A DNA stretch of 42,151 nt, taken from positions 1 to 42,151 of the forward strand of contig DASYZB010000157.1 in assembly GCA_035946615.1 (NCBI GenBank). Direction: 5' to 3'. Each line of letters begins with the position of its first letter. Position 1 is the first letter of the stretch. Shown one piece after another: positions 10,451 through 41,678 of the stretch. The stretch is from Verrucomicrobiia bacterium (GTDB taxonomy: Bacteria > Verrucomicrobiota > Verrucomicrobiia > Limisphaerales > UBA8199). The notes under the pieces were generated by a model. It worked only from the letters and a program-made list of their open reading frames with translations. It was not told where the DNA came from and did not search any database. The position numbers and the translations under genes are program-made.

Positions 10451-10526
10451 ATCGAAGATTAATAAACATAAACGGCGCAAAAAGTTGCGCGCCCATCGTC
10501 ATAAGAAGCGCACCTGGCAGAAGTAG
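10425..10526 (+). CDS. AURKAIP1/COX24-domain small basic protein (bS22/mS38-like)
   Basis: A 33-residue frame, MGSLKKRRKSKINKHKRRKK followed by LRAHRHKKRTWQK and TAG. More than half of the residues are Lys, Arg or His. The pattern KKRR-x-K-x-x-K-H-K-R-R-K-x-L-R-x-x-R matches the AURKAIP1/COX24 domain (DUF1713) that is shared by mitochondrial ribosomal protein mS38 and the mycobacterial small-subunit protein bS22. It is therefore probably a small ribosomal-subunit protein that wraps rRNA near the decoding region; this function is by homology only. It begins inside the end of the acetyltransferase gene and has no strong ribosome site of its own. Easily missed because of its length. Confidence 0.85.
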   Translation: MGSLKKRRKSKINKHKRRKKLRAHRHKKRTWQK

Positions 10527-10591
10527 CTCGGGCTCGGGCTACTGATTTGTCTTTCGCTCTCCGCGTTTGAGGAAGGAGGTGTTTGGTCATC

Positions 10592-12337: not shown

Positions 12338-12356
12338 ACCTCAAGGAGAGGGTTGT

Positions 12357-12749: not shown

Positions 12750-12756
12750 GGTATTG

Positions 12757-25777: not shown

Positions 25778-26311
25778 ATGCCGACTGAATTGCTCAATGA
25801 CCCTCTGACACCCCCGCCTGATTCTCTCTGGTTTGTCGCCCACACCCGCCCGCGCTGCGAGAAAAAGCTGGCCCAACATTGCCGCCGCGAGAATATCCGC
25901 GCAACCCTCCCCCTTTATCGCGTCGTCCATCGCTACCACGGTAAGACCCGAAAAACTGCCGCCTTCCAGAAACCTCTATTCCCGGGTTACGTCTTCCTCC
26001 AACTCAACCCGGAGCAACGGCCCAAGGTCCTGCAAAGCGATTGCGTGGCCAAATTGCTTGAAGTGGTCAGCCAGGATTTGTTCATCGAGCAATTGCGGGC
26101 GGTCCTCCTGGCTATCGAGTCGAACCTCGAAATTGGCCTCGCTCACGATATCAGAGAAGGCCAGCGCGTCCGGATTGTCAAAGGGCCGCTTCAAGGCCTC
26201 GAGGGCCTGGTCGAGCAACGTTTTGGTCCTTCAACGGTCTTGCTGCGAATTGATTTCATTGGGCAGGCCGCCGCCCTTCAGATGGCGCCCGATGAGTTCG
26301 AGCCGGTATGA
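25778..26311 (+). CDS. NusG-like transcription antiterminator (RfaH/UpxY/LoaP type)
   Basis: 177 residues. The NGN domain starts SLWFVAHTRPRCEKKLAQHC and includes KPLFPGYVFLQL, the RNA-polymerase contact face. The KOW domain is near the end (IREGQRVRIVKGPLQGLEG). Specialised NusG paralogues travel with long polysaccharide operons and suppress premature termination in them. Here the gene faces the opposite way to the polysaccharide operon and its last 56 bases overlap the convergent CapD-like gene. It must therefore act in trans on that operon. It shares a divergent promoter region with the leftward ATP-grasp gene. Confidence 0.92.
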   Translation: MPTELLNDPLTPPPDSLWFVAHTRPRCEKKLAQHCRRENIRATLPLYRVVHRYHGKTRKTAAFQKPLFPGYVFLQLNPEQRPKVLQSDCVAKLLEVVSQDLFIEQLRAVLLAIESNLEIGLAHDIREGQRVRIVKGPLQGLEGLVEQRFGPSTVLLRIDFIGQAAALQMAPDEFEPV

Positions 26312-28289
26312 CTCGACTCCATAACTTCCCAACCAGGACTGGCTCAGGCTGGTTCGGCTTATTTGGCGACCGTATTTCCTGTTGCTGGTACTCTGGCACG
26401 GCCACATTCAGCAGGATTTTTAACTCCTGCGCGTTTGAGGAGTTGAGTCCGCTCTGCAGCAATTCCAGGTTTGCTGCGAGCGTCTCCCGCTCTGGCGGAT
26501 TACCTCGCAATCTCATGATCTTTGGGTGCGTCGTCCGGCTAACCGACTCTTCCGAATAAGAAATCTCCTCAAACAACTTTTCTCCCGGCCTGGTTCCTAT
26601 AAATGCGACCTGGATGTCTTTGCCGGGCTCAAACCCATAAAGCTGGATCATTTGCTTGGCAAGATCGACGATTCGCACCGGCTCGCCCATGTCCAGCACA
26701 AATATCTCGCCCCCGTTCCCCTCGACTGTGCTCTGAAGCACCAAACCGACCGCCTCGGGTATGGTCATAAAATAACGCGTCATCAACGGGTGGGTGACTG
26801 TGACCGGCCCTCCGGCGGCAATCTGCTCCTTGAATAAGGGCACGACGCTGCCCGATGACCCCAGCACATTGCCGAAGCGCACGGCCATTAACCTGGTTGG
26901 GGTATGATTGCGCGCCTGCAAGTCCTGAAGAACCATCTCCGCCAGCCTCTTGCTGGCGCCCATCACGCTCGTCGGGTTAATGGCCTTGTCTGTCGAAATC
27001 AGAACGAACCGCTCGACGCCGTGCTCGATCGAGAGCTTCGCAACTTGTGCAGTGCCGAAGACGTTGTTCTGGATCGCTTCGTCCGGCTGGCTCTCCATCA
27101 TCGGGACGTGCTTGTGCGCGGCGGCATGAAACACCAGTTCGGGCAAGTGCGTTTCGAAAATATGCCGCATGCGCCTCTCATCCAGAATATCAGCCACCAA
27201 CGGACGAATCCCCCGGCTGTACCCAGCCCGGATTAAGTCCTGTTCCACCGCGAAAAGTTGCACTTCCGACCTTTCCACCAGAAGCAACTCGGCCGCCCCG
27301 TAACTGGCCGCCTGCCTGGATAGCTCGCTTCCGATGCTTCCCCCGGCCCCGGTCACCATCACGCGACGCCCCGCAAGCAGGCTGCGGATTTCCTCCCGCT
27401 GCAGCCGCACCGGCTCGCGTCCAAGCAAATCCTCGATTTGCACGTTGCGCAAATGGCTCACGCAGAACTTGCCCACAGCCAGCTCAGCCAGAGACGGCAC
27501 GGTTTTATACTCCAAACCGCTTCGCCGGATGAGTTCCAGGATTTCCTTGATCCGAGTGGCGCGCGCCGATGGAATGCTCAGGATGAGTTCATCCATTTGA
27601 TAGCTTTGGGCCACTCCGTTTGCCAGCAACTCCGGAGGGCCCAGCACCGGAATATCCAGCGCGTGCGCCCCCCATTTGCTGGGGTCATCATCAAAAAAGG
27701 CCACCGGTTCCAGGCCCGACTTTGGGTCCGTCCTGAGTTCCTGGGCCAGCAATAGGCCGGCGTTGCCGGCGCCTATAATCGCCACCCGGCGCTTGCGATG
27801 CCTCCCGTCGCGTCTCAAGCCCAATAGCCGCGAGAAATGGTCCAGGCGGTAAAGCCGCCAGACATAACACATCGAGCTGAGGAGCAGCAGCCCCAGCAGC
27901 ATATCGATCAGGATGACCCCGAACGGGAGGGCATAACCCAATCCAAAACGCCAACGCACGAGCGCCAACGTGGCGCCCGACCAAAACATTGCCCAAACCA
28001 TCCGCATCATCGCCGGTATCCCAAAATACGCCGGCAGCAGATGAAACTGGTGAAAGGCGTATAGAAAGAAAAGCTGTAGAGGAACCACCCCTGCCATGAT
28101 AGGAAAGAGATACTTGCCCTGCTCAGGCGGCAAATCTAAATCAAATCGCACCTCAAATGCCAGCCATAACCCCAGCGTTAGCGCGCTGCTGTAAATCAGC
28201 AGAAACTTTCCGGCCCGCCGCAATCCGACCCCCGGCGGCAGCGCGCTTACCAAATCAATGCCCCTCTTCCGACCCCTTAGGATACTCAT
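26256..28289 (-). CDS. CapD/FlaA1/WbpM-type nucleotide-sugar dehydratase/epimerase
   Basis: 677 residues. Four membrane helices occupy about residues 25-155, then a first Rossmann domain (VAIIGAGNAGLLLAQEL, about 169), and the catalytic SDR domain starting RVMVTGAGGSIGSELSRQ (about 310). The family signature STDKAINPTSVMGASKRLAE carries the Lys of the SDR active site; Tyr of the usual YxxxK is changed to Met, as is common in this family. It converts UDP-GlcNAc to a 4-keto-6-deoxy sugar (4,6-dehydratase), the substrate for the aminotransferase in this operon. ATG 28289 overlaps the initiating transferase by four bases. It is the last gene of the leftward operon and converges with the NusG-like gene. 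Confidence 0.92.
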   Translation of the reverse strand: MSILRGRKRGIDLVSALPPGVGLRRAGKFLLIYSSALTLGLWLAFEVRFDLDLPPEQGKYLFPIMAGVVPLQLFFLYAFHQFHLLPAYFGIPAMMRMVWAMFWSGATLALVRWRFGLGYALPFGVILIDMLLGLLLLSSMCYVWRLYRLDHFSRLLGLRRDGRHRKRRVAIIGAGNAGLLLAQELRTDPKSGLEPVAFFDDDPSKWGAHALDIPVLGPPELLANGVAQSYQMDELILSIPSARATRIKEILELIRRSGLEYKTVPSLAELAVGKFCVSHLRNVQIEDLLGREPVRLQREEIRSLLAGRRVMVTGAGGSIGSELSRQAASYGAAELLLVERSEVQLFAVEQDLIRAGYSRGIRPLVADILDERRMRHIFETHLPELVFHAAAHKHVPMMESQPDEAIQNNVFGTAQVAKLSIEHGVERFVLISTDKAINPTSVMGASKRLAEMVLQDLQARNHTPTRLMAVRFGNVLGSSGSVVPLFKEQIAAGGPVTVTHPLMTRYFMTIPEAVGLVLQSTVEGNGGEIFVLDMGEPVRIVDLAKQMIQLYGFEPGKDIQVAFIGTRPGEKLFEEISYSEESVSRTTHPKIMRLRGNPPERETLAANLELLQSGLNSSNAQELKILLNVAVPEYQQQEIRSPNKPNQPEPVLVGKLWSRVIPARTHRAPSEGRRPAQ

Positions 28290-28885
28290 AAATCAACCCT
28301 TTCCGTTCCCGGCAGCAATGTGCGAAGGATAATCTTGGTGTCTTCCCAGCGGCTGGCTTGTCGCGCATAGGCCAGGCTCAGTTCAATTTTTCGCGGCATA
28401 ATGTCCTGGATGTAAACCCGGTCCAGGTCCCGAGCGCCCTCGAGGAGCCGCTCTTCATCCCTGAATCTGAGCGCCGCTGGATCGGTAATGCCCGGTTTGA
28501 GTGCCAATATCCGGCGTTGGTGCTCGCTATACAAGGCCACATAGCGGGGAACCTCTGGACGCGGCCCGACAAAACTCATTTCCCCGACCAACACATTCCA
28601 GAGCTGCGGCAACTCATCCAGCTTCGCCCGGCGCAGCACTTTGCCAATTCGGGTAACCCGCGGGTCGCCGGCTTGTGTGACACTCGGGCCTCTCGCCTCG
28701 GCCCCAGGGACCATCGTTCGAAACTTCACGATTTGAAACGGTTTGCCCCCCAACCCTGCCCGGGTCTGACGGAATAAAATCGGCCCGCCATCAGACAGTT
28801 TTACCGCAATGGCAATGAGCAGGAATAGCGGCCAAAGCAACAGCAGCCCTAAAGAAGCCAGCACCAAATCGTAAATACGCTTCAA
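28286..28885 (-). CDS. Initiating sugar-phosphate transferase (WcaJ/PglC-type)
   Basis: 199 residues, the short catalytic form without the N-terminal helices of long WbaP/WcaJ enzymes. One hydrophobic re-entrant helix ([20 protein letters not shown]) is followed by the conserved core: [61 protein letters not shown] and KPGIT. It transfers a sugar phosphate from a UDP-sugar to undecaprenyl phosphate, beginning each repeat unit. Its substrate is plausibly the product of the CapD/aminotransferase pair beside it, as with PglC after PglF/PglE, but this is inference. The stop overlaps the CapD start. Confidence 0.93.
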
Positions 28886-28962: not shown

Positions 28963-30177
28963 TCATCCCTCAACCTTCACCTTTATCCCGGTTTTTAGGT
29001 TCCTGGCGATGATCTCGTGTATCGTTTCGGCGATATAGACGATTTGCTCCTCAGTCATTGCCGGGAAAATAGGCAGGCTGACCAGTTCTTCGTATGCTCC
29101 GGCTGCGACGGGAAACTCTTCCCGATTGTATCCATACGTTTGGCGATAGTACGGATGCATGTGCAACGGCATCCAATGCACGCTGGCCCCAATACCGCGT
29201 TTCTTGAGCTCGCCGATAAATTCCGCCCGCCCAATGCTTAACGCACCCAGCCTTAGCCGAATTGCGTACAGGTGCCAGGAATGAATCCGGTTTGGCAACT
29301 CGCGCGGCAATTGCAACTCATCCATATCAGACAAGAGCCGCGAGTAGGTCCGAGCCACCCGCGCGCGTTGCGCGTGCAACCCATCCGCCTTTCGCACCTG
29401 GTGAATTCCAATAGACGAGGCGATGTCGGTCAGGTTGTATTTAAACCCGGGCGCGATGATTTCATAGTACCAGGCCCCGTCCGCAGTGAACCGATTCCAC
29501 GCATCCCGAGAAATCCCGTGCAAGGCCATCACCCGCATGCGCTCCGCGTAATCCGCATTGCCCGTGCATGCCATCCCCCCTTCCCCCGTCGTAATGCACT
29601 TGTTCGCGTAAAATGAGTAGCAGGAAATGTCTGAAAAACTGCCCACCGGCAGCCAGGGCGATTGCTCATCGTGCCGGTACTTGCCTGGGCAACAATGCGC
29701 AGCATCCTCAATGACCCGTATCCGGCGCGCGCGCGTCAGTTCGAGCAGGCCTGTCACATCTCCAATTTGGCCCCCGTAATGCATTGGGATAGCGATACGC
29801 ACATCGAGACCCCGCCCGCGAGCTTCCTCAAGCCGCCGATGCGCGTCGGCCATGTCCATGTTCAAATCATCCTCCCGGCAGTCCACCAGCACCGGGGTTG
29901 CTTTAAAGTAGCGCACCACCTCGGCAGTCGCGGCAAAGGTCAGCGTTGGGACCAAAACACCCTCTCCTTCTTTTAAGCCGACTGCCTCCAACGCCAGGTG
30001 CAACGCCGCTGTGCAGGAATTCACCGCCACAACGTGTTCCAAGCCGATATACTCGCTGAAGGCCTGTTCAAATGCCTTGGTCTTCGGCCCGGTTGTCAGC
30101 CAGCCCGACCGCAGCGTGTCCACCACCTCCTTGACCTCCTCCTCGGTAATGGTTGGTTTGAAAAAGGGGATTTGCAT
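28963..30177 (-). CDS. DegT/DnrJ/EryC1/StrS sugar aminotransferase
   Basis: 404 residues, PLP-dependent fold type I. Landmarks are IPFFKPTITEEEV at the start, VAVNSCTAALHLAL, VLVPTLTFAATAEVV, VIEDAAHCC, and the PLP Lys near residue 193 in SCYSFYANKCITTGEGG. It aminates a 4-keto sugar, most likely the 4-keto-6-deoxy product of the CapD-type enzyme two genes on, giving a UDP-amino sugar for the initiating transferase. I chose ATG 30177 (GAGG four to seven bases upstream); a longer frame overlaps the hydrolase gene. The stop is embedded in a GGATGAAGGATGAA repeat, similar to another gene end in this operon. Confidence 0.92.
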   Translation of the reverse strand: MQIPFFKPTITEEEVKEVVDTLRSGWLTTGPKTKAFEQAFSEYIGLEHVVAVNSCTAALHLALEAVGLKEGEGVLVPTLTFAATAEVVRYFKATPVLVDCREDDLNMDMADAHRRLEEARGRGLDVRIAIPMHYGGQIGDVTGLLELTRARRIRVIEDAAHCCPGKYRHDEQSPWLPVGSFSDISCYSFYANKCITTGEGGMACTGNADYAERMRVMALHGISRDAWNRFTADGAWYYEIIAPGFKYNLTDIASSIGIHQVRKADGLHAQRARVARTYSRLLSDMDELQLPRELPNRIHSWHLYAIRLRLGALSIGRAEFIGELKKRGIGASVHWMPLHMHPYYRQTYGYNREEFPVAAGAYEELVSLPIFPAMTEEQIVYIAETIHEIIARNLKTGIKVKVEG

Positions 30178-30182
30178 TTGCC

Positions 30183-31136
30183 TCAAGATTCTGCCTGAGC
30201 AACCAACCCTGGCTCCGGCGTGGCCCCGAATTCCCCGTTTGTGCTGGACTTGCCATCCAGCCTTCCCAGCCACTTCGTTATAGCTCTCAAAACAGCGGAA
30301 GGCCCCTCATTCTCAACAAACGAATGAGTTGTGCCTTGGATTTCTACTTCTTCCAGGTCCCCTGCGCGCGGCTGCTGAACATAACCGGCGTAATCGAATC
30401 CGGGCGCAGAGCCCTTTGCGGGTTGGGCTGCGATCAGCAGAACCGGAGTTCCTCGCGCCAGCACAGAATCGAGGGCCTCGAGAAGCTTCAGGTTGGCATC
30501 TGCTGGCAGTCCGCCTGAGGCTCCGCTGCCCCGCCATTGCATCACCCTTCGATAGAGCGCGCTGACATAAGGTTCCCATCGGCTCTCGATGACCCAGTCG
30601 TGCGCGCGCGCCTTGCTTTCCCGTGCTATCTCGACTGCCCTTCTGCGGAATGATTTTGCTGGCCCCTTTGTGCCAGGAGCTGCCACTCCTCGAGACAGGA
30701 AAAAAGGCAAATCCAAGAGGATGAGACCGCTGGTTGCAAGGCTCTCGGAACAGGCGGCTGCGAAGACGGCTGTTATTGCCCCTCCGCAGACGCCAAAAAG
30801 CGCTAACTCCGAAAGCCCATTGGATTCACACAACGCCTGAGCCAGAGCCTCGGCAACTGACGCGTGGCCTCCCTGTTGAATATGTCTATACAGCTCCAAG
30901 TATTGCCCCGGCAATTCGCCTTCCGAATCGCCAAGCCCGGGCAAATCAAAACGAAAACAGGGCCATCCCTGGTTCGCCAACTCGTCAGCGAGATGGACGT
31001 TGAGGTCTCCGCGCCCGGAACGAGGCTGGACGCCGGAATTAAAAAATAATATCCCGCGTTCGCCTGCAACAGGTCCAATATGCCGTGTGCCGTGCAAACG
31101 GAGCCCATCCACCTCGATGATCAAGGCTTCACGCAT
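30183..31136 (-). CDS. Alpha/beta hydrolase, exosortase-associated hydrolase 1-like
   Basis: 317 residues. The fold is recognisable from GILFFNSGVQPRSGRGDLNV, RFDLPGLGDSEG, the nucleophile elbow LFGVCGGA and a late TTHSFVE His block. The nucleophile position (C117) is Cys rather than Ser. This Cys elbow and the partner gene match the pair of hydrolases that accompany exosortase-type polysaccharide loci (TIGR03100). The reaction is unknown. It overlaps the second hydrolase by eight bases and precedes the aminotransferase by five, so all are one transcript. The last 20 residues are Gly/Glu-rich and probably unstructured. Confidence 0.8.
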   Translation of the reverse strand: MREALIIEVDGLRLHGTRHIGPVAGERGILFFNSGVQPRSGRGDLNVHLADELANQGWPCFRFDLPGLGDSEGELPGQYLELYRHIQQGGHASVAEALAQALCESNGLSELALFGVCGGAITAVFAAACSESLATSGLILLDLPFFLSRGVAAPGTKGPAKSFRRRAVEIARESKARAHDWVIESRWEPYVSALYRRVMQWRGSGASGGLPADANLKLLEALDSVLARGTPVLLIAAQPAKGSAPGFDYAGYVQQPRAGDLEEVEIQGTTHSFVENEGPSAVLRAITKWLGRLDGKSSTNGEFGATPEPGLVAQAES

Positions 31137-31977
31137 GATTGTGTTCGGGCTTTTGTATTACTCTCTTTAGAATCCAATCCAGATTCCTACCGAAGAATTC
31201 CGTAAAATCCGGATTGAGCGGATACTCCGGCACAATCGCCGCCCTGGGGTTCATCGCCCGGAAGAGGTTCACCGAGCGCATCAACGGCGCCATGTTTTCG
31301 CCCAGTTCAATATGGTTCCACGGCCGGCCTGTGATTGACTCCACACCCTCTCCCTCTGAAGCGCAGGCGCTATCCAGAGCGAGTGCCTCTGAACTGTTCC
31401 ACAGCTCCGCGGACCACCGATAGCCATCCACTTCCAGCGGCTCTCCTGCCTTTACTTGTCCGATATATTCCTGAGCTGATTTCCTTTCACAGTGCTTGAG
31501 CAGAATCATGTCCATCGAAAGGCGAGCCATCAGTCCCTGTTTCAAAACGTCCCTAGCCCGAAGAGGCGGTGACCACATCAGTAAGGCATCGCCGCTTCCT
31601 GCTGCGAAGGCCTTTTGCGCCAGCAACGCACCCATACCCAGCCCGTGCAGCACCAGGCGGCCAGCAGGATAATTTGATCTCAACCAGGCGCTCGCCTGCT
31701 GGATGTCCTCGATCCAATCGCGAAAAGTTATTTCGCTGAACTGTCCGGTGCTTTCCCCGGTGCCAGTATAGTCAAACCGCGCTGCCAGCACGTTTCGGCT
31801 CGCAAGGAAGCGGCCCCACTTGACCCACCCCGCCAGCGAATAGAGCCGATCTGTCGCAAAGGGCCCGCAAAGCAACACACAAGCCGCTGGCGCCTCGCAC
31901 TCGTACACGACGCTGTACAGCTCTCTTTGCCCAAGCGCCAAGTACTGCGCCTTTTCAATAGCCGCTCGATACGACAT
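31129..31977 (-). CDS. Alpha/beta hydrolase, exosortase-associated hydrolase 2-like, no nucleophile Ser
   Basis: 282 residues. It opens with a short beta meander (YSVVYECEAPAACVLLCGPF), then LAARFDYTGTGESTGQFSEI and the elbow LHGLGMGALLAQ. In place of G-x-S-x-G it has G-L-G-M-G, so the usual Ser is Gly (G114). This resembles the second hydrolase of exosortase loci (TIGR03101), where the elbow is also not canonical. It may bind an acyl or lipid-linked substrate without classic hydrolysis, or act with its partner; this is inference. ATG 31977 is preferred over 32043, which would overlap the glycosyltransferase more deeply. It overlaps that gene by 23 bases. Confidence 0.78.
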   Translation of the reverse strand: MSYRAAIEKAQYLALGQRELYSVVYECEAPAACVLLCGPFATDRLYSLAGWVKWGRFLASRNVLAARFDYTGTGESTGQFSEITFRDWIEDIQQASAWLRSNYPAGRLVLHGLGMGALLAQKAFAAGSGDALLMWSPPLRARDVLKQGLMARLSMDMILLKHCERKSAQEYIGQVKAGEPLEVDGYRWSAELWNSSEALALDSACASEGEGVESITGRPWNHIELGENMAPLMRSVNLFRAMNPRAAIVPEYPLNPDFTEFFGRNLDWILKRVIQKPEHNHA

Positions 31978-33250
31978 TTTCCTGAGGAGTCCGTAACATG
32001 TCCTGGTACCTCCCGCTTTCTGCTGCTCCGATGAGCATGTCACCGAGCCGTTGCACGCCGCGCGTTTTGCTCAGGTGCTCCAACGCGTAGCTCCGCCCGC
32101 TTAAACCGCGCTCCGCTAAATCTTCAGGTTCCAAAAAGGTCATTTCCTTCATCTTCTGCGCCAGGGCATCGGCTTCCTCCGGTGGAATCACCCAACCGCA
32201 ACGGGCGGTCCTGATTAGTCGCGCCGAATCGCTCTGCTCATCCACCGATGCCACAACCGGCTTCGCTGAAAGCATGTAAGACGAAAGCTTGGACGGAATG
32301 GAACTAATGGCAGCCCCTCGACGGACCGGCAACAGGCACACGTCCGCCAATGCCTGGAGCAACGGAACGCGTTTCACATTCGGCTCGGAAAGGAATCGTA
32401 TTTTGCCCGGGCAACGCTTTGCTAACTCCAGGCAGGCTGGCTTGCGAGTTCCTTCGCCCGCGATCACGAGCTGCCCTCCGCTCAAAGACGCTCTGGAGAA
32501 GCCTTCGATCAAATGCTCCACTCCGGCGACAGGGCCGATGTTCCCTAAAAACAGAAAGGTGAAACGATCTGTAGGCACACCGTACGCCTGGGCTGCCTCT
32601 TCCCGCTCCGGCAGCACCAGGAATGGTGTTTCATCTTGCCACGTCCCCACCACCGCCACGCGCTGGGCCGGCAACCCCCGCGACCTGATGTAAGTCTGGC
32701 GCATAGCCTCCGAAATCACCACCAGCGGATTGGACCTCCAGGCGTTCCACCGGTCCAATGTCACGAGGGCGCGTCCGGTCAGCCATTGAACCCACCCGGG
32801 CACCTTTAGCAAAGCCGATTCAGGGTAGAGGTCCATGATGTGTGCGATGTGCGCCACGCCGAGACGCGCAGCCCTCCGCGCTATCCAGGCCTGGGCTAGC
32901 ATCGGCCAGGTCGCCGAATAGACTGCATCCGGCAACGGGCCGCCTTCCCAGACAAACCGGCTCGACCACCGCCCGAAACTCCAACTCTCCAGCATCCGGC
33001 CAGCAAACCGCGATTGGGGCGCAACCCTCGATGGAACCCGCACCACTGACACCCCTTCCCGCCTCTCCCGCTCCACCGCCCCGCGGAGGGGCTTGGGGTA
33101 ATCAAGCGCGCCTGGGCGGCTCGGATAAGGACAAATCACTTTTGCGTCATGTCCTTTTGCCGCCAGGTACAATGCCAGATCACTGGCCATTCTGCCTGAA
33201 ACCGTCGGCTCCGGCGGGAATTCCGACGTTACAATGACAAATCGGCGCAT
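31955..33250 (-). CDS. GT4-family glycosyltransferase (WbuB-like)
   Basis: 431 residues, GT-B fold. The N-terminal domain has FPPEPTVSGRMASDLALYLAAKGH and the Gly-rich loop of the acceptor side. The C-terminal domain has FTFLFLGNIGPVAGVEHLIEG and the sugar-nucleotide site, with SSIPSKLSSYMLSAKPVVAS where GT4 members carry E-x(7)-E; the first Glu is replaced here by Ser/Ile and the site resembles the WbuB branch (fucosamine/aminosugar transferases). It adds one sugar to the lipid-linked repeat unit on the cytoplasmic face. It lies between an acetyltransferase (four-base gap) and hydrolase 2. Confidence 0.88.
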   Translation of the reverse strand: MRRFVIVTSEFPPEPTVSGRMASDLALYLAAKGHDAKVICPYPSRPGALDYPKPLRGAVERERREGVSVVRVPSRVAPQSRFAGRMLESWSFGRWSSRFVWEGGPLPDAVYSATWPMLAQAWIARRAARLGVAHIAHIMDLYPESALLKVPGWVQWLTGRALVTLDRWNAWRSNPLVVISEAMRQTYIRSRGLPAQRVAVVGTWQDETPFLVLPEREEAAQAYGVPTDRFTFLFLGNIGPVAGVEHLIEGFSRASLSGGQLVIAGEGTRKPACLELAKRCPGKIRFLSEPNVKRVPLLQALADVCLLPVRRGAAISSIPSKLSSYMLSAKPVVASVDEQSDSARLIRTARCGWVIPPEEADALAQKMKEMTFLEPEDLAERGLSGRSYALEHLSKTRGVQRLGDMLIGAAESGRYQDMLRTPQENVVSSGY

Positions 33251-33254
33251 GACA

Positions 33255-33878
33255 TCAAGACTTGCCCTGAGCTGGTCCTTGGTCTTGAAGCCTCACTCTT
33301 GAACGCAACTCCCGCTTTTTAAGAAATCGCGCTGGATTGCCCCCAACTACCTCCCAGGCCTCCACGGGCTTGACCACCACAGCCCCCGCTGCCACCACCG
33401 CCCCTTCTCCCAAACGCACGCCCATTCCTACAAAGCAACGTGCCGCAACCCAGGCGCGCGGGCCCAGGCAGATTGGCCTGCTCATCAAACGATTTGACGG
33501 GTCGGTGATATCATGACTGGCAGTGCAAAGGTAGGAATACTGGCTGACCACTGCGCCGGGTTCCAAAGTCACCTTGGCCACGTTATAGCAATCGACCTGC
33601 TCGGCCATGGCCGTCTGTTCACCCATCTCCAGGTTCCAGGGCGCCCAGATTCTTGTGCTGGGATAGACCAGCGCCGTTTGATGCACCTTCGCCCCAAAAC
33701 ACCTTAACAACCATCGTCGCCAACCAAAACACGGGCGCGGGCTCAGACGGAACAGAATTAGCCAAACCATCCCCCAAAGACCCCGCGCGCATCTGTTCGC
33801 AAAGGACCAACTGCTTGTCTGGCCCGGCAGAGCGGCTAACGCCCCCGCCGGTTGATCGATGGCCGGTTCAATGCGCAT
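33255..33878 (-). CDS. Hexapeptide acetyltransferase (WcaF/colanic-acid type)
   Basis: 207 residues. A membrane-proximal N-terminus (GLWGMVWLILFRLSPRPCFG) precedes the left-handed beta-helix, with repeats such as VHQTALVYPSTRIWAPWNL, VTLEPGAVVSQYSYLC and VRLGEGAVVAAGAVVVKPV. The catalytic His is in TASHDITDP and the end has VGGNPARFLKKRE. The SHDI block is characteristic of WcaF-like sugar O-acetyltransferases that use acetyl-CoA. It probably acetylates a hydroxyl of the repeat unit. It is one of two such enzymes in the operon and sits between two glycosyltransferases. Confidence 0.88.
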   Translation of the reverse strand: MRIEPAIDQPAGALAALPGQTSSWSFANRCARGLWGMVWLILFRLSPRPCFGWRRWLLRCFGAKVHQTALVYPSTRIWAPWNLEMGEQTAMAEQVDCYNVAKVTLEPGAVVSQYSYLCTASHDITDPSNRLMSRPICLGPRAWVAARCFVGMGVRLGEGAVVAAGAVVVKPVEAWEVVGGNPARFLKKRELRSRVRLQDQGPAQGKS

Positions 33879-33907: not shown

Positions 33908-35197
33908 TCATCCTCTCAACAGTTCTCTATAAACCCCATCCAACTTTTTCATAAACTCCCTGGCTGAATGATGCAGCTCCACCCGGCGCCGCCCGCGCTT
34001 TCCCATCTCATCCCGCAACTGTGTGGAGCCTATCAACCTTCGAATGGCAGCAGTAAGCCCCTCAACATCCCCCGGTTTAACCAGCAACCCGCTGTGGCCT
34101 TCCGAGATTATCTCCGGAATCCCCCCCACTGCCGTCGCAACCACCGGCAATTGATAGGCCATCGCTTCCAGGACCGACAGGGGCACACCCTCCCCATACG
34201 AAGGCAGTACGAAAATATCTGCACCGCTGAACAGCGCTGCCTTCTCGCCTCCGAAGACAGGTCCTGTGGTTCTAACCAGGTCACCAACTCCCTCTCTTGC
34301 AATCAATTCCCTGACCTGTGTCTCTACAGCCACGGAATCCATCGGTCCGGCCAACACCAATTCCAAGTTGGCGGCTCCATCGCGCCTCAATGACGCAACC
34401 GCCCTGATAAGGTCAAAAATCCCTTTTGCCCGCCCGATATTCCCGATGAAAAACAAAACAGTTCTTCCTGAAGGCGCTTTCGGTTCGCGCGGCAAATCCG
34501 GCAAAGCTGTAAAATTGTACAATACGACCGACTTCGAATTCAATCGGTGGGCATCTGGCGTATTCAAGCGGGCTGCCAACTCGTGTTGGATGCCCTCCGA
34601 CATCAGCACCATCCGATCAAACGTCCCCAGCAACAGCTTGATCTGGAACCATCGGAGCCAATCCATCTTCCCCGCCAGCAATGTGGCGTAGGATGCATGA
34701 TGAATATGGCCGGCCACTTTGCATCGCCCGAACAGCTTGACCAGCCAGACCAATGCCAGGTCCTTCAACAACGCCCAATCACGGCTGGTATGGATATGGA
34801 CGAGCTCCGGCCTCTCCTTGCGGACTCGCTTCACCAGGGCAACCGCGTGACCCAAAAACCGCCGCACATTCACCAGGTTCAACCGATTCACCGAACCATA
34901 CTCCCGGCGCGTGGTATCCGTATTAAAAGTGCTGACCTGGTATGGAAGGTCCCATGCCTCCAGCATCTGCCTGAGCATCGTTCCAATTCCACCGACGTAA
35001 TTTCCGGACGGCGGCACCGGCCCCACTTGGAGTATCCGCACCCGCGTCTGTAAATCCTGACCCGTCAGCCGTTCTTGCAAAAGCGATCCCTCACAGGATG
35101 GGGCCGTGTGCCTGCAAATCTCGGTGGCTCTAAAACCAGGCGATGCCTTTGGCCACTCCACGCTCGCGGGTTGTGGTTTCTGTGAAAGTTGGGTCAT
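33908..35197 (-). CDS. GT4-family glycosyltransferase
   Basis: About 429 residues, GT-B fold. A roughly 50-residue N-terminal extension precedes the domain start RVRILQVGPVPPSGNYVGGI. The C-terminal domain shows TVLFFIGNIGRAKGIFDLIRA and the GT4 signature PSYGEGVPLSVLEAMAYQLP, with E-x(7)-E intact, then VVATAVGGIPEIISEG. It transfers a sugar from a nucleotide donor with retention. Either ATG 35197 or 35221 may be used; the true start may be further in, near the domain. The stop overlaps a GGATGAAGGATGA repeat like the aminotransferase gene. Confidence 0.92.
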   Translation of the reverse strand: MTQLSQKPQPASVEWPKASPGFRATEICRHTAPSCEGSLLQERLTGQDLQTRVRILQVGPVPPSGNYVGGIGTMLRQMLEAWDLPYQVSTFNTDTTRREYGSVNRLNLVNVRRFLGHAVALVKRVRKERPELVHIHTSRDWALLKDLALVWLVKLFGRCKVAGHIHHASYATLLAGKMDWLRWFQIKLLLGTFDRMVLMSEGIQHELAARLNTPDAHRLNSKSVVLYNFTALPDLPREPKAPSGRTVLFFIGNIGRAKGIFDLIRAVASLRRDGAANLELVLAGPMDSVAVETQVRELIAREGVGDLVRTTGPVFGGEKAALFSGADIFVLPSYGEGVPLSVLEAMAYQLPVVATAVGGIPEIISEGHSGLLVKPGDVEGLTAAIRRLIGSTQLRDEMGKRGRRRVELHHSAREFMKKLDGVYRELLRG

Positions 35198-35273
35198 CTT
35201 ATTATACTGGGAGGACCGCAAGAAGGACTACACACCAAGGACCCTCTTCCAGATTTGGAATTATTTGGAATGG

Positions 35274-35966
35274 TCAATGTGTATCTCTTCGCGCGCAAAT
35301 AAAATACGAACTCTCCTCCTCCCCCGGCGTTCTTTGTGTTCTTTGGCGGCTTTCTCGGGATAACTCTTCGAGGTATCCGCGCTCCAACCTCTGGTCCGTT
35401 GGGTAGAGTTTCTTTTCATGGGCCAATATTTCCTCCACACCCCACCGGAATCGCACGAGTTTAGCAGGGTTCCCCGCGACGATCGCATAGGGAGGCACGT
35501 CGTGGGTGACCACCGAGCCGGCCGCCACAATGGCTCCGCGCCTGATGATGACGCCCTTGAGAATGAGGGCCCGGGCGCCCAACCATACGTCATGCTCGAT
35601 AATCACGTCCTGGTCGTCTTCCGCCCGCTTGCTGTTCACATCTCGCATCGCTTCCCCAACCACTGATGTGTTGTGGTTCCCCGCAATGATCATCACGCCA
35701 GGACCTAACATCACTTTGTTCCCCAGATAAATCCTGGACCTCGCAGCCATGAGCACGGCGCCGCGGCCCAGAACGACATCGTTCCCCAAATGAATGTTTT
35801 CAAAGGTGTAATATCCGTCCGGATCAAATCGCAAATTCCTGCCCCGCGTCCCAAAGAGGCTCTGCATGACAGACTCCCGCGCCCGGCGCACGAGCCGTTG
35901 CGCGCCAAACAAGCCCCAGGCCAATGGCCATCTCAAATGATCACTGGCTCGCATGGGAATCCGCAT
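35274..35966 (-). CDS. Hexapeptide-repeat O-acetyltransferase
   Basis: 230 residues. The beta-helix runs from about residue 50 ([39 protein letters not shown]) to about 180. The catalytic His is in AGNHNTS, and the C-terminal part has [37 protein letters not shown] and [11 protein letters not shown]. It resembles maltose/sugar O-acetyltransferases of polysaccharide loci. The last 25 residues (from about SRQRTQ) fall in DNA with an AAAGAACACAAAGAACG core that looks like a dispersed intergenic repeat, so the natural end may have been lost. Upstream GAGGAA supports ATG 35966. It lies 14 bases after a glycosyltransferase gene. Confidence 0.9.
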
Positions 35967-35980
35967 TTGTTAGCAGTTCC

Positions 35981-37183
35981 TCAGCCCTTGCATCCTTGCC
36001 CTGAACAAGCGCACTGAACCGAATCGACCAGCCCCGGCTCCGCCGGCCAATGACGCACCGGGACCTCTCGCCCCGTTGCCGCTGCCTCAAGCAGCCTCTG
36101 ATAGGCGTTAACCGCATGCTCGGGCGAAAAAAGTACCTCCGCTTTGCGCCGCGATTCAACCCCCATCGCGAGCCGGGCTTCGCGGGAAAGACCACAAAAA
36201 TCAAGGAGCGCTCGCGCCATATCTTCCGGATGTTGCGGCTCGAACAGGAATCCATTCACTCCCTGATCGACAAGAATATCCGCGTCCCCAATCCTGCTCG
36301 CCAGCACGGGCAAACCACATGCCATCCCTTCGCATACGGCATTCGGCAATCCTTCCGCCAGTGACGGCAACGCTACCGCATCCGCCTCCTGATACCGCGA
36401 AATAATCGCCTTATCCTTTTCATGCAAATGAAATGACCGCGCCAGACCCAATCCCCGGATCAATTCCTGGCACTCCTCGAAATATCTCCTGTCCTCGCTT
36501 CCTTGGCGCAGGAGCGGAAACCCCCCATACCAGTCGATTTGCAACTTAAGGGTTGGATGCTGCGATAAGGCCATCGCAACGGCTCGAATCAGACCCAGTG
36601 TGTTTTTTCTGGGCTGGTAACTGGCGGCAACAACCAGGCGAATCGGCCCGGAGCCATGCCGCCGGGCCGATCCGGCAGGTTTAAAGCTCTCCAAATCCAG
36701 GCAATTGTAAATGGTAGCAATCCTCGCTGCGCTTTTTCCGAGCACCTGCGCCAATGCCCTTCGATTCGCATGTGAGTTTGTCGTAATACAATCTGCCAAC
36801 CGATGAAATCCCCTCTTCCAATTCGGCGCCTTCCCATTGCCGTTCATTTCCAGACGTTCTGAAACCACCAGGCCCCACGGACGCTTCGGCAAGCCCGCTA
36901 GTTCCGCATACAGACAAGGGCCTTCAAGAAAAGCCAGCACGGCATCAGGGGCCTCGCAAAGCAACCGCTTTCTCAATGCCACCGGCCGGCCCAGCCTGCT
37001 CCGCGCCCTGAGCCGCTCGACTCCAACCCCGTTCGCATCCAGCATCGGCCGAAAGAACATGTCCTCATGGTACGTGATGAACGAAACGGAATGACCCGCT
37101 TTGCGAAAGAAAACCCCCAGCGTTGTCAACTGACGCTGGGCGCCCCCGGCTCCTAAATTGTCGATAAAACAAACGATCTTCAC
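35981..37183 (-). CDS. GT4-family glycosyltransferase
   Basis: 400 residues, GT-B fold. The start KIVCFIDNLGAGGAQRQLTT is typical of GT4. The C-terminal half shows IRLVVAASYQPRKNTLGLIR and the signature LPSLAEGLPNAVCEGMACGL with E-x(7)-E intact, then PVLASRIGDADILVDQGVNG. I chose GTG 37183, which overlaps the stop of the O-antigen ligase gene by four bases and begins directly at the domain; a TTG at 37216 would add 11 unlikely residues. The tail after residue 375 is Cys-containing and variable. The sugar transferred is not readable. Confidence 0.92.
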   Translation of the reverse strand: MKIVCFIDNLGAGGAQRQLTTLGVFFRKAGHSVSFITYHEDMFFRPMLDANGVGVERLRARSRLGRPVALRKRLLCEAPDAVLAFLEGPCLYAELAGLPKRPWGLVVSERLEMNGNGKAPNWKRGFHRLADCITTNSHANRRALAQVLGKSAARIATIYNCLDLESFKPAGSARRHGSGPIRLVVAASYQPRKNTLGLIRAVAMALSQHPTLKLQIDWYGGFPLLRQGSEDRRYFEECQELIRGLGLARSFHLHEKDKAIISRYQEADAVALPSLAEGLPNAVCEGMACGLPVLASRIGDADILVDQGVNGFLFEPQHPEDMARALLDFCGLSREARLAMGVESRRKAEVLFSPEHAVNAYQRLLEAAATGREVPVRHWPAEPGLVDSVQCACSGQGCKG

Positions 37184-38418
37184 GTCATCCCTGTCCGTTC
37201 CTGTAAATACCCGCAAATGCCGGCATACATGGGAACGAACTCCCTCGAGTCAAATAGAACCGCAAATATCGAGAAGATTGTGAAAATGGCCCAAAAGGTA
37301 AGAAGCCCCACACTGAAACCGCCACCCAGCCGCCTCATTCGAAAAAGTTGAAGCCCCGGCAGAAAATAAAAAACTGCCAGCAGCGCCATTCCAACCAGGC
37401 CCGCATTGCACAATACCTCGCCAAAGGTCGTGTGCGAATACACCCCGAATTCGGAGAGCCTGCTGAACCCCTCAAATCCGCATCCAAATAGCGGATGAGC
37501 CGCCCACAATTCAAAAACCCTTGTCAACATCGCAAAACGCAATTCGCTGGAACTGTCAGAGGCTATTCCTCGGCTAAATGGCTCCAGGAGCCTGTCCACA
37601 AAAGGCAGTCTGCTGAATAACAAGCCACCCAAAACCGCCATAAGCGCCAGCAGCACCGCCATTTTCACTGGGCGCCACCGGCGCATTCCTCCTTGGCCCG
37701 CAGCCATCCAGGGCACCGCCAGGATGAGACAACCCAGTCCCAGCATCGCTTTGCGGGAGCCGCTGAAAAAGCAAATCGCCAGCCCAGCCCCCAGGCCAAT
37801 GGCCGCAAGCGGCCAGCGCCACCATTTCCGGCAATTAAAAAAGACAATGCACGCGCCCAACATCAACATCACCCCGTAAATGCCTGCATCGTTCGCGTTG
37901 TCAAATGTCCCCGCAAATCGGTCCTTTTCGCTAAGAGAAGAGCCGGCCATTGAGGTCCCAAGCGCACGAATCTGGCGCCAGTTCATCCCGAGCGTCACCA
38001 ACCCGCTCGCGCAATAGGTCCCGAATAACAGCAATAACCGGTCTTTCGAACGGAAAACGATATGACAGGCCAGCGCCAGCACGCAGACCTTGATCAGAGT
38101 TAGGTACTCCGGCCAAACCTCCGGGTCTGACAATAGTGTGATGCTCCAAAAAAGCACCAGGACCGCATAAGACACCATGGATAAATGCACGCCCGGAATG
38201 CGCTTTAAGAGCGTCGTTAAAGCCAGCCCTGTCCCGAGCACCGCAAAGGCCTGAGGAATAAACGACAAATTCTCGGCCGTCGAAAAGATCGGAACACTGG
38301 CTATCGCCAGACTGCAAACAACCGCCGCGATTCGCTCCAATGCGCTCTCATAGGGCATCTCCAGAGCGGGCGCCCTTCCCAAGGCCACCGCTCCACTTGC
38401 CATTCGCGCAGTCGTCAT
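37180..38418 (-). CDS. O-antigen ligase/polymerase (Wzy/WaaL-type)
   Basis: 412 residues, about 10-12 membrane helices. The large periplasmic loop has the family signature HPLFGCGFEGFSRL, then YSHTTFGEVLCNAGLVG, the Wzy_C/O-antigen-ligase block that holds the catalytic His and Arg region. FSGSRKAMLGLG marks an earlier conserved loop. It polymerises repeat units or transfers the polymer to an acceptor at the outer face of the inner membrane. There is no flippase (Wzx) or Wza/Wzc export gene in the window; these may lie to the right. It is coupled to the next glycosyltransferase by a four-base overlap. Confidence 0.9.
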   Translation of the reverse strand: MTTARMASGAVALGRAPALEMPYESALERIAAVVCSLAIASVPIFSTAENLSFIPQAFAVLGTGLALTTLLKRIPGVHLSMVSYAVLVLFWSITLLSDPEVWPEYLTLIKVCVLALACHIVFRSKDRLLLLFGTYCASGLVTLGMNWRQIRALGTSMAGSSLSEKDRFAGTFDNANDAGIYGVMLMLGACIVFFNCRKWWRWPLAAIGLGAGLAICFFSGSRKAMLGLGCLILAVPWMAAGQGGMRRWRPVKMAVLLALMAVLGGLLFSRLPFVDRLLEPFSRGIASDSSSELRFAMLTRVFELWAAHPLFGCGFEGFSRLSEFGVYSHTTFGEVLCNAGLVGMALLAVFYFLPGLQLFRMRRLGGGFSVGLLTFWAIFTIFSIFAVLFDSREFVPMYAGICGYLQERTGMT

Positions 38419-38435
38419 TTTTTATGTGGGACCGG

Positions 38436-39683
38436 CTACCGCGGCAGCGACTTTGACTGCCCTACAACCTCTCTTTCGACCTCTGCGGCTTCCGCCCCTT
38501 TCGCATCCTTCGGGGTTCGATGTTCGACGTTGGGTGTCCAATGCTGATCGCCGTTCCCGCCTCTTCCAACCTTTGGAATGTAATCCGCTAACAAAAACTC
38601 CCGCAGCGCCAGCTCATGTACCCAGTACCGCCCAGGCTCAAATCGCCAGTTGCCATCTTCGTCAAAGTGGTAAGCGCCTGGTTTGTCATGCACATGCAAT
38701 TGCTCCGGGGTTTCCACTTGGCAGACGGGTGAAAACTCAATCACGTGAAAGTCCCCTTCGCGGTCTCTCACCATGTCCACCACCAACATTGGGCTGCGCA
38801 CCGCCCGGTTCAACTCGAGCGCAATGGCCATCGCCCTTCGGGGTAAATCTCTCTTCTCCACCAGGTTCATCCCTGATGCCCGAAAATCCCCCGCAGGGAC
38901 CTTCCGGTAATAGCCGAAAACCAAGTCCCCGACCACAATCACCCGGATGTCATATCCGTCGTTTGGAATGAAATCCTGAAAATAGACATATCCCTTCTGC
39001 CGCGCATAATTGACATGTGTCTTGCGCCCGCCCCAGCTAAACGCTTGGTGAACGATCCTTCGGGCATGTGCCGCGTTGCTCACCAACTCCACACCAATCG
39101 AGCCCGACCCGGGCACGATCTTGGACAATGCCGGGTAGCTCAACCCGGCGACCATCCGCAACGCATCTTGGCAATCGTGTGAAATATGAGTCTTTGCAAA
39201 AGGGATGCCGCAGGAATTCGCGATATACGCCTCCAGTTTCTTGTCCTCATATAACAAGGCGTGCGCCGCCGACGGATAGGTTGATTTACCTAAGTAGTTC
39301 TCCAAAAACCAATACTTCTCCCGCAGCTCCTGCAGGTGATGCAGTTCGCAAGACCAAATCCCGATAATAACGTCGAATCCCCCGGCGCGCTGCAGCCAAT
39401 CGTGCGCGTGAATATCATAAATGTCGTGCTCGAACCCGTTCTTCTGCAGGAACCGGCAGTACTTTGTCCAGCGCGGATAGGGTTCCAGGTCTCGAACTAC
39501 CCCCACGCGCGGCCTGGGCAGACTGGCAGGCCAATCGATTCCTACCATTTCCGCGTTTTCAATCTGTCCTCGATCATCCCGCGAACAATCCTCCGAGCCC
39601 GGAAAATGCCGGCGCACCCGGCAGTACCAGGCCGTCTTCATTACCCGCCGGACGAAAAATGACTCCTTTAATCTCCGCAACAT
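38436..39683 (-). CDS. ATP-grasp domain protein (RimK-like), second copy
   Basis: 415 residues. A 60-residue basic N-terminus is followed by a pre-ATP-grasp domain (RVGVVRDLEPYPRWTKYCRF) and the core: LYEDKKLEAYIANSCGIPFA, the Gly-rich loop KIVPGSGSIGVELV, YVYFQDFIPNDGYDIRVIVV and PAGDFRASGMN. The metal block HVIEFSPVCQ has Ser where ATP-grasp enzymes usually have Asn in E-x-N. It should form an acyl phosphate and ligate it to an amine or similar; substrates are unknown. The last 38 residues (from QHWTPNVEHRTP) match the style of a dispersed repeat found at many gene ends in this phylum, so the real end is probably earlier. It follows the phosphatase gene by about 100 bases. Confidence 0.85.
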   Translation of the reverse strand: MLRRLKESFFVRRVMKTAWYCRVRRHFPGSEDCSRDDRGQIENAEMVGIDWPASLPRPRVGVVRDLEPYPRWTKYCRFLQKNGFEHDIYDIHAHDWLQRAGGFDVIIGIWSCELHHLQELREKYWFLENYLGKSTYPSAAHALLYEDKKLEAYIANSCGIPFAKTHISHDCQDALRMVAGLSYPALSKIVPGSGSIGVELVSNAAHARRIVHQAFSWGGRKTHVNYARQKGYVYFQDFIPNDGYDIRVIVVGDLVFGYYRKVPAGDFRASGMNLVEKRDLPRRAMAIALELNRAVRSPMLVVDMVRDREGDFHVIEFSPVCQVETPEQLHVHDKPGAYHFDEDGNWRFEPGRYWVHELALREFLLADYIPKVGRGGNGDQHWTPNVEHRTPKDAKGAEAAEVEREVVGQSKSLPR

Positions 39684-39787
39684 AGAAGCGATTTCAGGCT
39701 TCTTCCGTTCTGTTCAATTCTCCAGAGGGTCGCCCTTCCCAAAACACCGCAAGGCGCTTGGCGCGACCTGGTTCCCAATACTCTGCA

Positions 39788-40414
39788 TCACCAACTCACC
39801 ACTTCCCCCCGACCCAACCGAACCACGCTCTCACCCGTCAGTTTCTCGCCGGCAAACCGGAAGCGGGCGAGTTCAAGATTACCGGGGAAGAGTGCGAGCG
39901 ACTCGATGCAATTCAGGCCACGGAGCAGGCCGTTGAAAAGCTGCAGGAACACCCCATGCGATACCACCAACACCTCGCGTCCGCTGTAATTGATGAACAA
40001 AAACCGGCGGAACTCTTTCGCGCGTTCCCAAACATCCTCGAGGGCCTCGCCCCCTTTCGGATTCACCGTATGCAAATCATAGCCGACCTGTATCAATAGC
40101 ACCGGCGGTTTTACCTCCCGCACCTCGTCCCAGGTCAGCCCTTCCAGAATCCCAAATCGTCGCTCGCTGCACAAGGGCGTCTGCACGATGGGTGTGTTTC
40201 CTCGGGAGAGAATCCGCGCTGTCTCCAAGGCTCGCTTCAAAGGCGATGTGATTACCGCGTCAAATCGCGCCCGAGCCAGTTTGGCCGCCGCACTGCGGGC
40301 TTCGCGCAGGCCCGCTTTGCTCAGGGGGACATCGAGCGTTCCGGCGTAGCGCCGTTGGGCGTTGTAATGGGTATAGGCGTGCCGGATGGTGCTGATGCGG
40401 GTTTGTCGTGCCAT
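39788..40414 (-). CDS. Histidine phosphatase (phosphoglycerate mutase-like)
   Basis: 208 residues. The catalytic His is in the opening motif STIRHAYTHYN (RHG with Ala in place of Gly), with the second Arg in TSPLKRALETA, the Glu in ERRFGILEGLTW and the closing VVSHGVF. All four core residues (two His, two Arg) appear present, so it should be active, either as a mutase or, more often in this branch, as a phosphatase on a small phosphate ester. It overlaps the enolase-like gene by 94 bases, and with it recalls two successive glycolytic enzymes placed in a polysaccharide locus. Substrate unknown. Confidence 0.87.
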   Translation of the reverse strand: MARQTRISTIRHAYTHYNAQRRYAGTLDVPLSKAGLREARSAAAKLARARFDAVITSPLKRALETARILSRGNTPIVQTPLCSERRFGILEGLTWDEVREVKPPVLLIQVGYDLHTVNPKGGEALEDVWERAKEFRRFLFINYSGREVLVVSHGVFLQLFNGLLRGLNCIESLALFPGNLELARFRFAGEKLTGESVVRLGRGEVVSW

Positions 40415-41592
40415 ACAGGTTCGTTCGCCCAGCGCAGAATCGAGTTGAGCCTCATCACGGAGGAATAATCGGTCATGAGCGGCCCGATCTTGATGTAATC
40501 CACTCCATAAATACAGCTCAGAGTCGAAACAAACGTCTCTTCGGTGCTGACCGAGCGGTGCGATGCAATCGTTAATTGACCATGCCGCTGGGCGGCCTCA
40601 ACCGCCCGGCAAGCGGCGGTAATTGTTCCCGCTTGGTTGGGTTTGATAATCACGCCATGGGTGCACCCCCGTATCGACCCATCCTCAATCCGGAGCGCAT
40701 CGGAGGAATAAAAATTATCACCAATCACATGACAGCATTTCACTGACCCGCTCAATTCTCTCCACGCCTCCTGGTCCTTCTCTCCAAAAGGGTCCTCCAA
40801 AAATCCAATCCCGAACTCCCGAATTAATCCGGCCCAATACTCTCCAAATTCCTCGCCCGAATACGAGGAGTTGTCCGTGACTGCCAGTTGGTAGCGTTGC
40901 CCTGTCCAAAGGTCCCCCGCCGACGCATCCACCATCAAATCAAACTCGTTCCCCAATCCAAGCTCGCCCAGAATCGCTAACAAAAACTCAAGGCATTCCC
41001 GGTTATCCCGCGCTCCGAGCCGATAAACCGGGTTCCCTGACACTAGCTCCATCCCGTGCTTCCGCAGCTTTTCCCTAACCTTCCTCTGCACCTGGCCATG
41101 CAACTCGATCACCTTCTCAACTTCATGGCTCCGCGCTACCAGGAGGTATTCAGCAAAATCGCTTAAGACCGGGTTTGTATAGGCATGCCGGCTCCCGTTT
41201 AAGATGTTGCAGCACAACCGGGGCGTGCCCGATTCGCGAACCCGCGCTCCCAAGCGCTCCATTCCGGGACATGACACCGTTTTTGCATTGAAAAAGGCCA
41301 GCGACAAGCTGAAAACATTGTTCCGCCCGAATTCACCGATGTGCCGTTGCAGAAAATTATCGAATTCCTGCTGCTCCATTTCGAGCCCGATGCACCCTTG
41401 CGATTGAATGAGACACAAAACCGCCTCGGGCGACAGCACCCTTTGGTCGCCCTCATAAATGCTAATCGTTTCCCCTTGAGGCGACGCACCTACTCCCAAC
41501 GAGCCATCATCCAACTCGATAACGAATTCATTCGTGAACTCTACATGCGAGTTGATCACCCGCCTCCACCCAATCTTTTGAATGCCCGCCAT
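40321..41592 (-). CDS. Divergent enolase homologue
   Basis: 423 residues, colinear with enolase through residue 390. Retained residues are H136 (NGSRHAYTN), E148 (AEYLLV), metal ligands D222 (VDASAG), E266 (FLEDPF) and D292 (GDNFYSSD), K317 (IIKPNQAGT), H345-R346 (ASHRSVSTEET) and K368 (YIKIGPL). Two catalytic parts differ: the loop normally S-G-A-S-T-G is PQGETIS, and the GDEGG motif with the general acid/base Glu is replaced by SGNPV (185-189). It is therefore unlikely to be the housekeeping enolase and may dehydrate another phosphorylated acid; enolase-like paralogues of this type occur in phosphonate pathways. The final 33 residues overlap the phosphatase gene. No ribosome site is obvious. 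Confidence 0.85.
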   Translation of the reverse strand: MAGIQKIGWRRVINSHVEFTNEFVIELDDGSLGVGASPQGETISIYEGDQRVLSPEAVLCLIQSQGCIGLEMEQQEFDNFLQRHIGEFGRNNVFSLSLAFFNAKTVSCPGMERLGARVRESGTPRLCCNILNGSRHAYTNPVLSDFAEYLLVARSHEVEKVIELHGQVQRKVREKLRKHGMELVSGNPVYRLGARDNRECLEFLLAILGELGLGNEFDLMVDASAGDLWTGQRYQLAVTDNSSYSGEEFGEYWAGLIREFGIGFLEDPFGEKDQEAWRELSGSVKCCHVIGDNFYSSDALRIEDGSIRGCTHGVIIKPNQAGTITAACRAVEAAQRHGQLTIASHRSVSTEETFVSTLSCIYGVDYIKIGPLMTDYSSVMRLNSILRWANEPVWHDKPASAPSGTPIPITTPNGATPERSMSP

Positions 41593-41678
41593 CTTGTCTT
41601 TGCCTAACCCGACTCTCCCCTATCCTTACAAAACCCGCAATCCCTGCGCTAAATTGAAATTCGACGAAAATCAAAAAT

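Follow-up and report, generated by a model that had tools for sequence, protein, structure and literature searches.

An enolase-like protein lacking the dehydration acid and lid, its histidine phosphatase partner and an ATP-grasp ligase in a verrucomicrobial polysaccharide gene cluster

Few known enzymes are as highly conserved as enolase. In phosphinothricin synthesis, an enolase homolog is proposed to make carboxyphosphonoenolpyruvate (carboxyphosphonoenolpyruvate synthase). Here we describe an enolase-like gene that lies next to genes for a histidine phosphatase and an ATP-grasp ligase in a polysaccharide gene cluster of a Verrucomicrobiia bacterium. The window, the whole stretch of DNA that was analysed, is the entire contig DASYZB010000157.1 (C157; 42,151 bases) of a 5.6 Mb assembly (G000) that is 96% complete. 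In enolase, according to the available portion of PMC4450660, Glu211 acts as the general acid when hydroxide leaves, loop L1 with Ser39 is the Mg2 lid, and an S39N enzyme has an open site and retains basal activity. The described counterpart on the ligase side is Neisseria PglB2, an ATP grasp/phosphoglycosyl transferase that makes a glyceramido sugar, as given in the accessible parts of PMC11130364 and PMC6959607.

In the open-licence literature we found no description of an enolase-like, phosphatase and ATP-grasp set in a polysaccharide cluster, no paper linking an ATP-grasp enzyme to a glyceric acid O-polysaccharide, GATDH or a carboxyethyl-lysine capsule, and nothing on point about divergent enolase paralogs. 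On this basis, the gene set appears to be undescribed.

The enolase-like protein and its phosphatase

Three genes lie side by side on the minus strand (coordinates are those of the window):

40321..41592, minus strand: enolase-like protein, 423 residues; Enolase_C match, lid loop L1 (ASTGEH) deleted, SGNPV in place of GDEGG
39788..40414, minus strand: histidine phosphatase (branch 1), 208 residues; His_Phos_1 E=1e-37
38436..39683, minus strand: RimK-like ATP-grasp ligase, 415 residues; Pfam RimK E=4e-11

Gene calls and profile matches agree here with an earlier model-made reading of the DNA letters (the sequence-only reading), which had described an enolase homolog, a histidine phosphatase overlapping it and an ATP-grasp gene as adjacent and leftward; the overlap is 94 base pairs (bp; 40321-40414).

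We compared the first protein with enolase (Enzyme Commission number 4.2.1.11; TIGR01060, PF00113) in an alignment with 27 other enolases. Residues carry yeast numbers. Like enolase, the protein matches Pfam Enolase_C (E=3.3e-27) and retains D246, E295, D320, K345, K396, H159, E168 and, in the SHRS motif, H373, R374 and S375; the three acidic Mg ligands, the base Lys345 and Lys396 are present in all four variant rows (the window's protein and the relatives described below) that cover these sites. Unlike enolase, it scores only 125.7 bits against NCBIfam eno (TIGR01060), under the cut-off of 300, and carries V-S-G-N-P-V where enolase has V-G-D-E-G-G. All six residues of this E211-site motif are non-acidic in the four of four variant rows covering it; acidic residues do occur a few positions further on. 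The L1 lid loop with Ser39 is also gone in all four rows covering the region, leaving a six-residue gap that corresponds to ASTGEH. Furthermore, Q167 is not kept, D321 is Asn, and three residues are inserted following H159. The C-terminus is about 30 residues longer than in the L031 and L032 counterparts. The three full-length variant rows agree in the catalytic residues and in the variant-specific motifs NSHVEFTNEF, HAYTNPVLSDF and KPNQAGT. AlphaFold2 models of the enolase-like protein and the ATP-grasp ligase (mean pLDDT 45.9 and 42.1) were both too poor for use.

The alignment bears out what the sequence-only reading had seen in this protein, namely retained metal ligands, Lys residues and SHR motif, SGNPV in place of GDEGG, and an altered substrate loop, where the ASTGEH lid is absent. 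Its "loss of the general acid/base Glu" held in part: the Glu is lost and is the general acid (PMC4450660, available portion), but the base is Lys345, which is kept. Because of this residue pattern, read together with the literature on Glu211 and S39N, the apparatus for binding a 2-phospho acid and removing its C2 proton remains, and the dehydration acid and lid are gone.

Relatives of the protein are few. A scan of 84,980 species genomes with a single-protein query, the reach of which is close relatives only, gave 26 pattern matches, two of them encoding relatives: L031 (Latescibacteria), 52% identical to the window's protein, and L032 (Caldisericota), 43-45% identical. Profile searches at E<=1e-50 yielded one further relative among 80 genomes of L031's phylum (G459, with the gene split by two contig ends, L038 and L039) and none beyond G444 itself among 54 genomes of L032's phylum; at E<=1e-45, only the window matched among 320 genomes of its order. 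Neither the 80 nor the 54 genomes include the window's own. The known set is therefore four variants: the window's, two from Latescibacterota and a single one from a Caldisericota assembly. Single-protein searches of 57 other related genomes (E<=1e-10, 45 matched) and 386 other genomes of the phylum (E<=1e-27, 6 matched) returned identities of at most 30%. Twenty-five of these low-identity matches were taken as loci (19 from the 57-genome search and 6 from the 386), of which 23 have GDEGG and 2 are of SAR type; those beyond the 25 were judged on score alone, and the genome samples of the separate relative searches overlap. Three scans of viral contigs gave no relative of the enolase-like protein. 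On plasmids, 340 records matched it, all below 60% identity; the 20 listed, judged by identity and annotation, show 25-29% identity, 13 carry an enolase annotation, and the gene neighborhood of one match (L059) was uninformative.

Two divergent SAR-type enolases (L003, L022) were considered as members and rejected, as they have retained the ASTG loop as well as DEGG and sit in another clade. A second kind of divergent enolase, with DEGGYW, SAR for SHR and Asp for E168, is carried by one genome from the window's order and another from its class (L028, 7881-10113; L029, 9664-12239), each directly beside an APH-type kinase gene, and is possibly another repurposed enolase.

In a tree, a branch supported at 100/100 splits the four variants from the 27 other enolases, giving the separate clade that the sequence-only reading had proposed looking for. 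The distance between the two sides, about 10 changes per site, amounts to saturation; long branches meet in this tree, four rows (including the window's and L032's) are of odd composition, and 64 of 500 label shuffles were equally clustered, the labelled rows being few. We regard the variants as one group, a view that rests equally on 45-52% identity and the shared motifs. The window's genome has a separate canonical enolase with GDEGG intact (G000:C132), as the sequence-only reading needed; another is separately present in G444 (Caldisericota), and for the 1.5 Mb assembly G443 none is reported.

The phosphatase gene adjoins the enolase-like gene in four of four loci, one copy being a remnant. 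In the window, L031 and L038 it comes immediately after the enolase-like gene; the L031 and L038 proteins share 51 and 53% identity with that of the window. In L032, the enolase-like gene shares the bases ATGA at its end with a 43-codon remnant of this phosphatase, which reads RY for RH and contains a stop; the ATP-grasp gene comes next. This remnant (L032 1282-1413) is a degenerate gene between two intact partners, from gene decay or an assembly fault. The window's enzyme belongs to branch 1 of the histidine phosphatases, as judged by its His_Phos_1 match and by R11, H12, R61, E84 and H153, which we take to be catalytic and which are invariant in three rows. It shares this branch with phosphatases of the PspA or alpha-ribazole phosphatase kind, and its best matches in the Protein Data Bank are 1ebb, 1h2e (phosphatase) and 4ij5 (phosphoserine phosphatase 1). 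It differs from them in falling below the cut-off for all 19 NCBIfam models matched and in forming a subtype of its own. At E<=1e-30, no copy of this subtype was found in the 319 remaining genomes searched from the window's order, where the enolase-like gene is likewise absent (E<=1e-45).

Thus, apart from the decayed copy, all four known loci share the enolase-like/phosphatase pair, and the ligase joins it facultatively, because the phosphatase is found in four of four loci and the ATP-grasp gene in two. The pairing is more than chance, since it recurs in other phyla and the third-codon G+C of the trio genes resembles that of neighboring genes.

The ATP-grasp ligase and its surroundings

The ligase is RimK-like (43.3 bits against a Pfam cut-off of 21). 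Its gene follows the pair in the window and in L032, the two proteins being 38-40% identical; the order enolase-like, phosphatase, ATP-grasp is therefore common to two phyla, and glycosyltransferase genes lie beside it in both. In the window, the trio belongs to a row of polysaccharide genes that runs on the minus strand from 41592 down to 26256 and includes three glycosyltransferases, two acyltransferases and two alpha/beta hydrolases. The other genes of the row, and a second ATP-grasp gene, are:

37180..38418, minus strand: O-antigen ligase/polymerase (Wzy_C), context; profile match
35981..37216, minus strand: glycosyltransferase, context; profile match
35274..35966, minus strand: hexapeptide acyltransferase, context; top NCBIfam match TIGR03308, 76.4 bits against a cut-off of 201.65
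33908..35221, minus strand: glycosyltransferase, context; profile match
33255..33878, minus strand: WcaF-type acyltransferase, context; 160.4 bits against a cut-off of 192, Pfam hexapeptide matches below cut-off
31955..33250, minus strand: glycosyltransferase, context; profile match
31129..32043, minus strand: alpha/beta hydrolase; top NCBIfam match TIGR03101, below cut-off
30183..31136, minus strand: alpha/beta hydrolase; top NCBIfam match TIGR03100, below cut-off
28963..30273, minus strand: DegT/DnrJ sugar aminotransferase (amino sugar supply); below cut-off for the top NCBIfam model
28286..28885, minus strand: phosphoglycosyl transferase (Bac_transf); profile match
26256..28289, minus strand: UDP-sugar 4,6-dehydratase (Polysacc_synt_2); below cut-off for the top NCBIfam model
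24649..25707, minus strand: second ATP-grasp, 27% identical to the first, without a Pfam match

The window thus holds a gene set of the GATDH type, with dehydratase, aminotransferase, phosphoglycosyl transferase and ATP-grasp together. In the accessible description of PglB2 and GATDH in Neisseria, an ATP-grasp function likewise goes with those of a phosphoglycosyl transferase, an aminotransferase and a 4,6-dehydratase. The systems, likened by description only, differ in that the window has separate genes and no fusion, and in that no enolase-like gene or phosphatase is named for GATDH in that text. Because the window has counterparts of these four enzymes, an amino sugar is a plausible acceptor by analogy. 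The glycerate-like substituent suggested by the sequence-only reading fits both the gene cluster and this ATP-grasp precedent (PMC11130364, accessible part).

At E<=1e-25, a related ATP-grasp enzyme was found in three genomes of the phylum besides the window's, of 387 searched (L049, L050, L051), in neighborhoods of which only some genes were profile-scanned. The L049 gene adjoins a Wzy_C ligase, as the window's does, and a PGA_cap (capsule synthesis) gene is nearby (11738-12982). The L050 gene has a glycosyltransferase gene and an AlaDH/PNT gene alongside; that of L051 has an AlaDH/PNT gene alongside and a PGA_cap gene nearby (9972-11162). The sole plasmid match lies in a capsule cluster of Escherichia coli (NZ_AP027746.1; L058), where an ATP-grasp "hypothetical protein" comes immediately ahead of a gene annotated as N(5)-(carboxyethyl)ornithine synthase (8857-10933); IS91 transposases are on either side of this cluster.

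All four distant relatives are therefore in polysaccharide surroundings, and three of the four adjoin an AlaDH/PNT-family gene. These three pairs (L058, L050 and L051) suggest polymers bearing a carboxyethyl amino acid. They resemble the window's system in placing a small-molecule enzyme beside the ligase within a polysaccharide cluster, and differ in the partner enzyme and in their ligases, which share only 27-28% identity with that of the window. Among the seven ligases compared, those from L050, L051 and E. coli are mutually closest (33-41%), as are those of the window and L032 (40%). In this small set, ligase branches appear to track the adjoining small-molecule enzyme, which supports the idea that the enolase-like/phosphatase pair supplies the acid that would be attached.

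A possible pathway and its alternatives

We tentatively propose that the trio makes a small hydroxy-acid and places it on the polysaccharide, a reading that we rate at somewhat short of an even chance. From the gene content, recurrence and residue pattern observed, we infer three reaction steps. In the first, the enolase-like enzyme would bind a 2-phospho-carboxylate of the 2-phosphoglycerate class through the phosphate Arg and Ser, the carboxylate Lys and the metal ligands that it has kept. Lys345 would take the C2 proton to give an enolate, and, because the C3 hydroxide would not be expelled without Glu211 and the Ser39 lid, other enolate chemistry would follow, C2 epimerisation being the simplest; the open site would admit a larger substrate. 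In the second, the coupled phosphatase would remove the 2-phosphate to leave a glycerate-class acid, pulling the first step forward. In the third, the ATP-grasp enzyme, where present, would activate the carboxylate as an acyl phosphate and form an amide with an amino sugar supplied by the cluster's own dehydratase and aminotransferase.

Epimerisation of 2-phosphoglycerate would account for the need for a special enolase, as a phosphatase by itself could yield D-glycerate. We consider unlikely the most specific version of the proposal, that an enolase fold without dehydration epimerises or rearranges a 2-phosphoglycerate-class acid, has its own phosphatase, and in some lineages is joined by a ligase that attaches the resulting rare acid, L-glycerate for example, to surface polysaccharide. 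A coherent family without the acid and lid, but with the remaining active site intact, would illustrate how the enolase fold gains a new reaction, would connect central carbon metabolism with a new kind of polysaccharide decoration, and would caution against labelling such genes glycolytic enolase.

Several observations weigh against the proposed pathway. It demands an unusual product, since D-glycerate needs no special enolase. No ATP-grasp gene was found at E<=1e-8 in the Latescibacterota assemblies G443 and G459, and the visible neighbors of these loci, few of which were scanned, are unlike polysaccharide genes. The Caldisericota phosphatase is degenerate or truncated. A misbinned contig is possible, and the four members all come from fragmented metagenome-assembled genomes. 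The co-occurrence expected by the sequence-only reading therefore stands for the enolase-like/phosphatase pair in four of four loci (one a remnant) and for the trio order in two phyla, but not for the Latescibacterota ligase or an intact Caldisericota phosphatase. In the same way, its idea that the trio makes and attaches an unusual small carboxylate fits as to a glycerate-like group, but a phosphonate-like one is unsupported and the trio is not a fixed unit.

These absences bear on a possible, if somewhat unlikely, alternative, in which the enolase-like protein and phosphatase form a two-gene unit for a free metabolite (for example, a solute) and the ATP-grasp is an independent decoration enzyme, a neighbor by chance in polysaccharide loci. 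Both Latescibacterota pairs would fit it, with no ATP-grasp and no polysaccharide genes recognized on their visible sides, as would the quite different partners of the ATP-grasp relatives. However, the same order with ATP-grasp in two phyla, with glycosyltransferases beside both, argues for a functional trio, as does the mutual closeness of the window and L032 ligases.

Improbable, in our view, is an enzyme that adds a bulky group to C3 of a phosphoenolpyruvate (PEP)-like molecule, or takes one off, to give a phosphonate- or ether-like product. Loss of the lid loop and acid would leave room for a group other than water, and the top NCBIfam match of the acyltransferase at 35274-35966, the phosphonate-named TIGR03308, weakly points the same way, far below its cut-off. 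However, PEP mutase (TIGR02320, E<=0.001) was found in none of the four variant-carrying genomes, of which one is known to be more than 90% complete and three are small or partial; among control genomes, 6 of 14 matched below the curated cut-off and none above it, which leaves the comparison without a positive control. This result lowers the odds of phosphonate chemistry, and the phosphonate-like group of the sequence-only reading loses ground accordingly. The phosphinothricin homolog is similar as an enolase homolog in non-glycolytic chemistry and differs in serving a phosphonate/phosphinate pathway. In the available portions of open-licence reviews sought for that homolog, enolase is treated only as a drug target. 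Equally improbable is an enolase that has decayed or weakened and serves as a spare or in a moonlighting role, with no new reaction: the TIGR01060 score far under the cut-off and the basal activity of open-site S39N enolase (PMC4450660, available portion) would allow it, but the invariant residues and motifs across full-length rows 45-52% identical to the window, and the retained partner gene, argue against it.

Borders of the gene row

The sequence-only reading placed the trio at the head of the operon, which cannot be shown: the window is the whole contig, a partial open reading frame on the same strand (41679-42149) stops 86 bp upstream of the enolase-like gene, and the three promoter-like matches in 37000-42151 are no more than in shuffles (mean 2.0, standard deviation 1.3). 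At the other end, a NusG-like gene (25778-26311, plus strand) runs opposite to the operon and shares 56 bp with the end of the dehydratase gene; the second ATP-grasp gene sits past it. Within the operon, the two adjoining alpha/beta hydrolases (30183-32043) are kin of exosortase A-associated hydrolases 1 and 2, with scores below the cut-offs.

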